Source: Fimbriimonadaceae bacterium
GTDB lineage: Bacteria > Armatimonadota > Fimbriimonadia > Fimbriimonadales > Fimbriimonadaceae
Assembly: GCA_019638775.1 (NCBI GenBank)
Contig: JAHBTD010000001.1
Span: 930,001 to 994,000, forward strand
DNA length: 64,000 nt
Direction: 5' to 3'
Shown here in pieces: positions 4,122-5,930 of this stretch. Made by a program: the position numbers and the translations under genes. The number at the start of each line of letters is the position of its first letter. Positions within the stretch are counted from its first letter, which is position 1. Below the pieces are notes generated by a model. The model was not told the origin of the DNA. It saw nothing but the letters and a program-made list of their open reading frames with translations, and ran no database searches.

Positions 4122-5306
4122 TCAAGGCCTGTGCAAGACCAAAGTTATTCCCATCGGTGCGGGGCCAGGATCGTTTTCCCTGCGGTTGAACTGGGCCGCG
4201 CCACGCCGCATCCCAGTAAACACAAGCTCCAGACTGTTAAACGACTTCTTCGCCGTGTCCCATTCCCCGCGTCCATACATCTTGGCGTCGTAGCCCCGGC
4301 GGGCCGTCCCGAGCTGCACCGAACCCGAGTATTCGATCTGCATCAGGCTCCCTGATTGGCTCAGTCGGCGCATCGTGATCGTCGCCTGCTTCACTTCGCT
4401 CGCTTGCCAGGTTGGGACCTGTCCGCGCACGTTGTCGACCAAGACTTCCTGGGCGATCCGGCTCACTGCGTCGGATGAAACCGCTTCAGACGCCGTCCCG
4501 GAAGGGACAAACGTCGAAGCAGACGGAAGGCCGATCCAGTTCTCGTTCCACGCCCACTTCACATAGTCGGGGAAGAACTCTCGATTGCCCGTCACTTCAT
4601 CGAACCGGGCCCCGCTCCTATCGCCCGCGCCGCGCGGCAGGTCACGTACATTCACGCGCAGAATAAGTTCGCCTCTGATCCCGGGCGGAAGGGCTGACTT
4701 AACAGTCGGGACCGGACTGTTGGCGTAGTTCTTTTCTTTGCGAAGCGTCTCCCACCTTTGCAGGGCGCGGCTCAGACGTGCGCGAATGTCGCCCGCATCG
4801 CCCGACGCGGCAAAGCGGCCTTCCAGGTATTCGGCGTTCGGGCCGATCATGTAGATGCCCTGCTTGGTGCCGGGATGATTCCACGCCCCCGGAGGCATGC
4901 TCTCGCCATATTTCTTGAAGAAAACGTGCTCTGGGTTGTCCTTGACCCGGTTGAGGTTGCCTGGATCTTCGGGATAGAGCATGTAAACCTCGTCGGCGAC
5001 GGTGACGAACTCCTTGCTGAGCTTCTTGATTTCGGGGTCTGACCAGACCAGTTGGCGTCCGCGGACGCCGTTATTTCACGTACAGCCGAGAGGATGTCCG
5101 TTCATGGTCCAGAACAGGAGGGGGCGTCCGAGCCTCTTCGCCTCCTGCACGGCGGGCCAGAACTGGTTTCGCCAGCCGATGTCTTTGTACGCCTCCTCTT
5201 TGGCGTCGGGCTGGATTGTGGCGATCAATGATCGGTAGTTCTGGGCGTTCGGCTCGGTGGCTTGAGCCTGACCGATGAGGGCGGCCAGCGTTAGTGTCGT
5301 CAGCAT
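4122..5306 (-). CDS. candidate selenoprotein: secreted thioredoxin-like protein with C-T-U motif
   Basis: Two open frames (5306-5079 and 5075-4122) are in the same phase and separated only by a TGA at 5078-5076. Read through, they give 394 residues. Features: signal peptide 1-16 (AQA cleavage), a thioredoxin-like strand GRPLLFWTM (60-68), then NGHPLGCT-U-NNGVRGR with Cys75 and the TGA codon at 77. Next come SDPEIKKL and a later GIYMIGPNAEYLEG segment like the second half of a thioredoxin fold. A C-terminal domain of about 190 residues (from about 205) is not recognised. The TGA falls exactly where a redox cysteine is expected, and no other stop or frameshift occurs in 1.2 kb. A hairpin with a GGUC loop follows the TGA. 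Probably an extracytoplasmic redox enzyme; the substrate is unknown. The alternative is a recent nonsense pseudogene. It lies 84 bases downstream of a second gene with the same feature. Confidence 0.7.
5036..5078 (-). promoter_or_regulatory. candidate bacterial SECIS element (gene 4122-5306)
   Basis: On the minus strand, after the TGA at 5078-5076, comes a perfect 16-base palindrome (5069-5054). A stem GGUCU/AGACC (5049-5045 with 5040-5036) then closes the tetraloop GGUC. The loop begins 31 bases after the TGA and its first bases are G, as needed for SelB recognition in bacterial SECIS hairpins. The 5-bp stem is short, so this is the weaker of the two elements in the locus. Confidence 0.55.
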
Positions 5307-5390
5307 GCCTCTATCCTAACACACGCGAATACCTACGATACAAGAAGATAGGTTTTCGCTCGCAGACCTGCGAGCATCACGATCAGCCTA

Positions 5391-5930
5391 TCACCCACCG
5401 CCGATAGCGTCCACCGAGAGCTCGATGTAGTAGAGTTTGTCGTCTCGGAAGAGATAGTAGTTCGAGTACTTGACGCCCATCCCATCGGCGTTGAGCGGTG
5501 TCTGCCGCGTGTAGACAAGCTCCTTAGCAAGAAACCGTTTGCTCCAGAACGCCTTTTGCGGCTTGCCGAGAATCTGTTTGACCTCTTGCTGAGACATGCC
5601 GAGGTGGATGCCAAGGTTCGTTCTGGGCTTGATCGAGCCTGATTGGAAGTTGCGCTTCTCCTCCTCAATGCGCTGAGGAATTTCATCATCAGCGAGTTCA
5701 TCGTGGATGATGCCTTCGTTTTGCAAGATCGAACGCAAATCGGCGCTTAAGACCAAGCGCCTGTGGGAACCGTCTCAGTCGGCGCCGGAAAAGAGATAGA
5801 GCTTTTGCTTTGGGTCAAAGACAGACTGATGATAATCGTCTGCCGACTTGGCACCGATTGACGTATCCATTGGAGCTTTTTGCCCGAGAGCCAACGCACT
5901 CATCACACCAATCAACAAGAGTGTTCTCAC
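5391..5930 (-). CDS. candidate selenoprotein: small secreted BamE/SmpA-like protein
   Basis: From a GTG at 5930 the frame gives a signal peptide (VRTLLLIGVMSALALGQ). It runs on through YLFSGAD, reaches a TGA at 5777-5775 (codon 52), and continues in phase as DGSHRRLVLSADLRS to the stop at 5391 (TGA directly followed by TAG). Total 179 residues. Residues 108-128 (IHLGMSQQEVKQILGKP) and the following LVYT...YYLFRDDKLYYIEL form a BamE/SmpA-like domain. The part after the TGA alone would lack any signal peptide, which favours one continuous protein. A 7-bp hairpin with loop GGUCUU follows the TGA. An in-frame TTG at 5945 could also be the start. Role unknown; probably periplasmic or lipid-facing. 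Confidence 0.7.
5742..5777 (-). promoter_or_regulatory. candidate bacterial SECIS element (gene 5391-5930)
   Basis: Minus strand: the TGA (5777-5775) is followed after 13 bases by a perfect 7-bp stem GGCGCUU/AAGCGCC (5761-5755 with 5748-5742). The stem closes the 6-base loop GGUCUU, which starts 20 bases after the TGA. This spacing fits bacterial SECIS elements. The loop nearly matches the AGGUCU loop of the Escherichia coli fdhF element, where the GU is contacted by SelB. Confidence 0.7.

Follow-up and report, generated by a model that had tools for sequence, protein, structure and literature searches.

The published model of the bacterial SECIS element describes a hairpin with a loop of 3–9 nt and a stem of 4–16 bp at a spacing of 16–37 nt, where a G lies within the first two loop positions and the loop follows the pattern N1-G[G/U]-N-N2 (PMC13188914). 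Families with a terminal Sec (KCU-star/DUF466 and UXX-star) and proteins with two Sec residues exist and are listed in the same source. Redox reactions are thought to be the role of most bacterial selenoproteins (review, PMC9312934).

The window, i.e. the whole stretch of 64,000 nucleotides analyzed here, contains a gene whose product, judged from sequence, is highly likely to be an exported protein with two selenocysteines, U52 and the terminal U180. For Sec52 on its own, leaving U180 aside, the reading comes close to certainty. The original prediction of a selenoprotein is supported. Terminal-Sec and two-Sec proteins are already known, but the layout found here is unusual. The protein is absent from the published selenoprotein lists and reviews surveyed, and literature searches for selenoproteins together with BamE, Armatimonadetes, Armatimonadota or Fimbriimonas found nothing relevant. 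Features of the gene are given in Table 1.

Table 1. Positions of the predicted coding and recoding features, numbered from the first letter of the window
Feature	Position	Strand	Basis or remark
Predicted two-Sec protein CDS	5388..5930	-	GTG start 5930; 180 residues, putative Sec at 52 and 180; probable true stop TAG 5390–5388; translation and alignment with 17 homologues
Predicted signal peptide VRTLLLIGVMSALALGQ	5880..5930, extent approximate	-	By eye from the sequence
TGA codon 52, putative Sec52 in ...SGAD-U-DGSH	5775..5777	-	Cys in 15/15 non-UGA homologues; TGA in G031 and G050
Candidate SECIS 1, GGCGCTT-GGTCTT-AAGCGCC	5742..5761	-	Loop begins 20 nt past the TGA; matching hairpins in G050 and G031
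BamE/OsmE-like half, residues 107–176	5403..5612	-	PF04355 E = 0.027 (below cut-off); VIA-align OsmE Z 6.5, BamE Z 6.1
Terminal TGA codon 180, putative second Sec U180, ...IGGG-U-stop	5391..5393	-	Aligns with terminal or near-terminal Cys in 11/15 Cys homologues
Candidate SECIS 2, GCTCGCA-GGTC-TGCGAGC	5358..5375	-	7-bp stem; loop begins 22 nt past the terminal TGA; beyond the stop codon

The reading frame and its homologues

Translation of the minus strand from the GTG at 5930 gives VRTLLLIGVMSALALGQ..., proceeds to SGAD and reaches the TGA at codon 52 (5777–5775). After this codon the sequence is DGSHRRLVLSADL... and the frame stays open as far as the TGA at 5393–5391. This bears out the single frame with a signal peptide, an in-frame TGA and a BamE-like domain that had been proposed. 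The gene end, previously placed at 5391, appears to be one codon short, as the frame probably continues through the terminal TGA to the TAG at 5390–5388. A hydrophobic N-terminus is also found in most homologues. Rfam models, applied with their gathering scores, detect no RNA within the window.

Homologue searches across the order (113 genomes) and the phylum (291 genomes) resulted in an alignment of 18 proteins. All 15 uninterrupted homologues display a Cys exactly at the position of codon 52, mostly in the context E/D-C-D-G-A-H, which is the outcome sought when Cys homologues were suggested as a check. The alignment of the window protein with these contiguous Cys proteins runs unbroken across the TGA, and both sides are conserved. 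None of the homologues begins past the TGA and carries a signal peptide there.

The UGA carriers are three in total, i.e. the window protein and those of genomes G031 and G050. G031 has a TGA at codon 52 in GGG-TGA-DGAHRRLVLS and is 38–39% identical to the window protein; G050, which belongs to another family, has its TGA at codon 52 in GGE-TGA-DGAYLGLVLS and is 23% identical. The nearest relative, in genome G095 (42% identity), has Cys at both Sec positions and a C-terminus of GGAC-stop. The sequence GDCDGA is kept in several more distant Armatimonadota members, and the family is found mainly in this phylum. With just the window protein as query, a protein-pattern search in named genomes found no match. 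The gene neighbourhoods of G031, G050 and G095 show no shared neighbour by eye.

In the tree, the UGA members occupy at least two separated branches: the window protein with G031 (starred support), and G050 elsewhere on a long branch. Thus Sec and Cys seem to replace one another at both positions jointly, the number of events being uncertain.

In the relative L092, on a contig labelled Verrucomicrobia (VFJQ01000057.1), the Cys domain is preceded by a hydrophobic segment and by a CPKC segment that resembles a zinc ribbon; its N-terminus is not a plain signal peptide.

The hairpin behind codon 52

SECIS 1 has the perfect 7-bp stem and the GGUCUU loop at 20 nt that were originally described, and it is found as such at 5761–5742. 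Its folding energy is unexceptional (z about −0.8 to −1.0), and neither of the two hairpins of the window gene is significant in folding energy against shuffled sequences. The weight of SECIS 1 comes from its loop, position and recurrence. A loose bSECIS-like hairpin with at least 4 pairs is present behind 805 of the 2088 TGA triplets (~39%) on both strands of the window. This means that presence of a hairpin says little, and that what counts is the GGUC loop together with homology. Under a strict criterion (GGTC loop, at least 7 Watson-Crick pairs, loop 14–30 nt downstream of the TGA), only three of the 2088 triplets match. Two belong to this gene, at codon 52 and at its end; the third is out of frame and lies within range of the hairpin behind the terminal TGA.

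The nucleotide sequence TTG-GTC-YTA-AGC lies behind the putative Sec codon in all three UGA members. The Leu codon at this place is TTA or CTA in 3/3 UGA members and in 0/15 Cys members; these two account for about 6% of the Leu codons of long genes in the window. In the 15 Cys homologues there is no GGTC hairpin at the equivalent place, with the exception of one chance 2-bp case. The G050 hairpin, GGGCTT-GGTCCT-AAGCCC, is a perfect 6-bp stem with one compensatory pair, where the C-G of the window is replaced by G-C, so that the covariation previously proposed as a check is seen in a conserved stem with a single compensatory change. The first hairpin of G031 has four loop-adjacent pairs followed by an internal C-A mismatch, and its predicted most stable fold is a different one.

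A simple terminator scan labels SECIS 1 (5742–5761, minus strand) as a terminator, which is a warning for automatic annotation.

The terminal TGA

The original prediction overlooked the TGA at codon 180, which very probably encodes a second Sec under the direction of a separate SECIS. In 3/3 UGA members the terminal TGA is preceded by GGG or GGA and followed directly by TAG, TAG or TAA. Tandem stops of this type are found in 0/86 long open reading frames of the window. At the aligned C-terminal position, 11 of the 15 Cys members have a Cys, in sequences of the types VPGC-stop, VPGCGE... and GGAC-stop. The remaining four (L034, L035, L048 and L049) have no terminal Cys, and thus the terminal site is not essential for the fold.

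Both hairpins of the window gene, with their 7-bp stems and GGUC loops at 20 and 22 nt, fit the bSECIS model. The AGGUCU core of SECIS 2 is the same as that of the E. coli fdhF element. The terminal hairpin of G050 is CGCAC-GGTCC-GTGCG at 16 nt, and that of G031 is GGTCGCC-CGTTG-GGCGACC at about 19 nt, where the loop is CGUUG and not GGUC. The GGUC loop is therefore present in the terminal hairpins of 2/3 UGA carriers, and the terminal hairpins of all three satisfy the bSECIS model including its N1-G[G/U]-N-N2 pattern. The two-Sec reading is weakened by the fact that there are just three UGA carriers and that the hairpins of G031 deviate (CGUUG loop, C-A mismatch).

SECIS 2 was also considered as a transcription terminator; this was rejected, given the absence of a T-run and of a call in the terminator scan. 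A terminal Sec codon of this kind can hide from annotation, since its UGA is read as a stop and its SECIS lies in the untranslated region.

Sec-decoding genes

The source assembly is 4.3 Mb in 126 contigs with a completeness of 99.86%. It contains tRNA-Sec (70.8 bits), SelB (377 bits), SelA (491 bits) and SelD (358 bits), and the SelD gene is itself interrupted by an in-frame TGA. The genes for Sec decoding, whose absence had been named as an argument against the prediction, are thus all present, and the TGA within SelD serves as a positive control for Sec decoding in this genome. SelA, SelB and a UGA-containing SelD are found in the genomes of all three UGA carriers. The genome of G095 has no SelA match and only a weak SelD match of 41 bits versus the 125-bit cut-off. 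A true Sec/Cys pair should be distributed in this way, with UGA in genomes that have SelA, SelB and SelD, and Cys in G095, which lacks a SelA match. At the sequence level, then, both Sec/Cys exchanges, the hairpins and the decoding machinery are in evidence.

TGA terminates 33/86 long open reading frames in the window and 6/25 long non-overlapping genes. It is thus also an ordinary stop, and the genetic code is not globally reassigned.

The hairpin behind the TGA of this SelD (L090, G000:C3:202514-203419) displays a C-rich loop, GCCCGA or CCCGA, and not GGUC; the SelB of the host may therefore accept more than one loop type.

The next gene downstream (4122–5306, minus strand) has the sequence GHPLGCT-TGA-NNG, with its TGA at 5078–5076, and shows no Pfam or NCBIfam match. 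Relatives are present in 41 of the 113 genomes of the order, and where a match covers the site, the codon is almost always TGA. It very probably represents a large, mostly Sec-only family with the motif C-T-U. A divergent second copy with one in-frame TGA is found in the same genome outside of the window (G000:C2:224815-225654).

Fold of the protein

The PF04355 (BamE) profile gives 14.7 bits (E = 0.027) for the window protein, under the gathering cut-off of 23.2 bits, and the best score among the 18 family members is E = 0.0073. In NCBIfam, BamE is likewise sub-threshold (E = 0.031), and no family member matches any model better than E = 0.03. The family is without an accepted Pfam or NCBIfam model.

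An AlphaFold model built on six sequences has a pLDDT of 86.8 and a pTM of 0.81. In this model the turn U-D-G-S connects two strands, residues 44–51 and 56–62, and the last strand (165–176), which is long, runs into Gly-Gly-Gly-Sec. Foldseek gave no match at E ≤ 0.001. The best VIA-align matches are YjgB/DUF4309 (Z 7.5), OsmE (6.5) and BamE (6.1), all under Z 8. Since there is no Foldseek match and all Z values are below 8, the fold assignment is weak. A profile search of PDB sequences gave weak matches only, chiefly to BLIP and BamE. On the model, the protein is best described as BamE-like in arrangement, not as a BamE; the earlier designation as BamE-like holds as a weak resemblance of fold and sequence and does not extend beyond this, the profile score being under the Pfam cut-off.

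Proposed mechanism and alternatives

SelB and tRNA-Sec would insert Sec at UGA codons 52 and 180, with a separate hairpin shortly behind each codon directing the event; the hairpin for codon 180 would lie in the 3′ untranslated region past the TAG. The translated product would be exported via its signal peptide and would carry an alpha/beta domain that resembles BamE/OsmE and YjgB. It may function as a redox protein. Sec52, placed in a tight beta-hairpin turn with the motif U/C-D-G-A/S-H, would then attack as the selenolate, and the role of resolving residue or electron relay would fall to the flexible Gly-Gly-Sec at the C-terminus. In the Cys homologues a pair of Cys would take these parts, and the four that have no terminal Cys may use an external thiol. 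For an exported protein in which Sec and Cys are exchangeable at two sites, a redox pair is the simplest mechanism, and we infer it at about even chances. The fuller proposal, i.e. an exported redox protein on a BamE/BLIP-like scaffold with a diselenide or selenenylsulfide between the internal and the terminal Sec, and with two UGAs, each served by a SECIS, that exchange jointly for two Cys codons within the family, is offered tentatively and has rather less than an even chance of being correct in all its parts.

The main rival to the redox pair concerns the mechanism and not the two-Sec reading. Here the Sec/Cys positions would bind a metal or a selenium or sulfur ligand, as in a chaperone or scavenger. 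The conserved Asp, and often His, beside Sec52 (U-D-G-A-H), the flexible Gly-Gly-Sec tail and a fold which is not a thioredoxin fold are all compatible with such binding. It is set against the redox role generally ascribed to bacterial selenoproteins (PMC9312934), and we regard ligand binding as unlikely, although to be reckoned with.

The two other alternatives concern the reading of the gene. In the first, which is improbable, Sec52 alone would be real, codon 180 would be a normal stop backed by a TAG that is there by chance, and the hairpin behind them would be fortuitous or mark the transcript end. Genes are often followed by hairpins, the four Cys homologues lack the terminal Cys, and the terminal hairpin of G031 has no GGUC loop; against this, a terminal or near-terminal Cys is present in most Cys homologues including the nearest one, the TGA is directly followed by a second stop in every UGA carrier as opposed to none of the long window frames, a GGUC loop at SECIS spacing occurs in two carriers, and the terminal hairpin of the window, without a T-run, is not called a terminator. 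Far less probable still is a gene that is broken or ends at codon 51, where the TGA would be a true stop or a sequencing error and the downstream open reading frame a separate gene or a remnant. A TTG-started frame of 121 aa does follow the TGA and the assembly is fragmented into its 126 contigs. However the same TGA is found in three divergent genomes, all of them Sec-decoding, with Cys in the others; the downstream frame has no signal peptide by eye, as had been claimed for the part past the TGA, and conservation extends on both sides. The homologues already contradict a broken gene.

Comparison with known systems

With the predicted two-Sec gene, the selenoproteins gain a family that does not have the thioredoxin fold, in Armatimonadota, a phylum for which no published selenoproteome analysis was found. 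Its two putative Sec residues, each paired with Cys in relatives, would allow the contribution of Sec to an active site to be tested cleanly, and likewise whether bacteria form diselenides outside the cytoplasm.

Like the selenoproteins with fdhF-type SECIS elements, the gene has an in-frame UGA, a GGUC-loop hairpin 16–22 nt downstream, SelA, SelB, SelD and tRNA-Sec in the genome, and Cys homologues. Unlike these, it appears to encode a small exported non-thioredoxin protein in which 128 residues separate the two Sec and each Sec would have a SECIS to itself, one of these elements lying past the stop codon. KCU-star/DUF466 and UXX-star, by their names, share a Sec at or near the C-terminus, and a SECIS past the stop would be expected for them; the window protein however has no NCBIfam match to these families and has an internal Sec as well. 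BamE/OsmE (PF04355) and BLIP-like folds are also exported and resemble the C-terminal half in its helix-plus-three-strand arrangement (VIA-align Z 6.1–6.5). The window protein differs from BamE/OsmE in its score below the Pfam cut-off, in an extra N-terminal beta-hairpin bearing Sec52, in its Cys/Sec sites, and in that no outer-membrane-complex context is seen for it. YjgB (DUF4309, PDB 4ygt) is the best structural match, with Z 7.5 over 102 residues at 3.4 Å, but the identity is 10%, and a Z under 8 may reflect merely a common arrangement.
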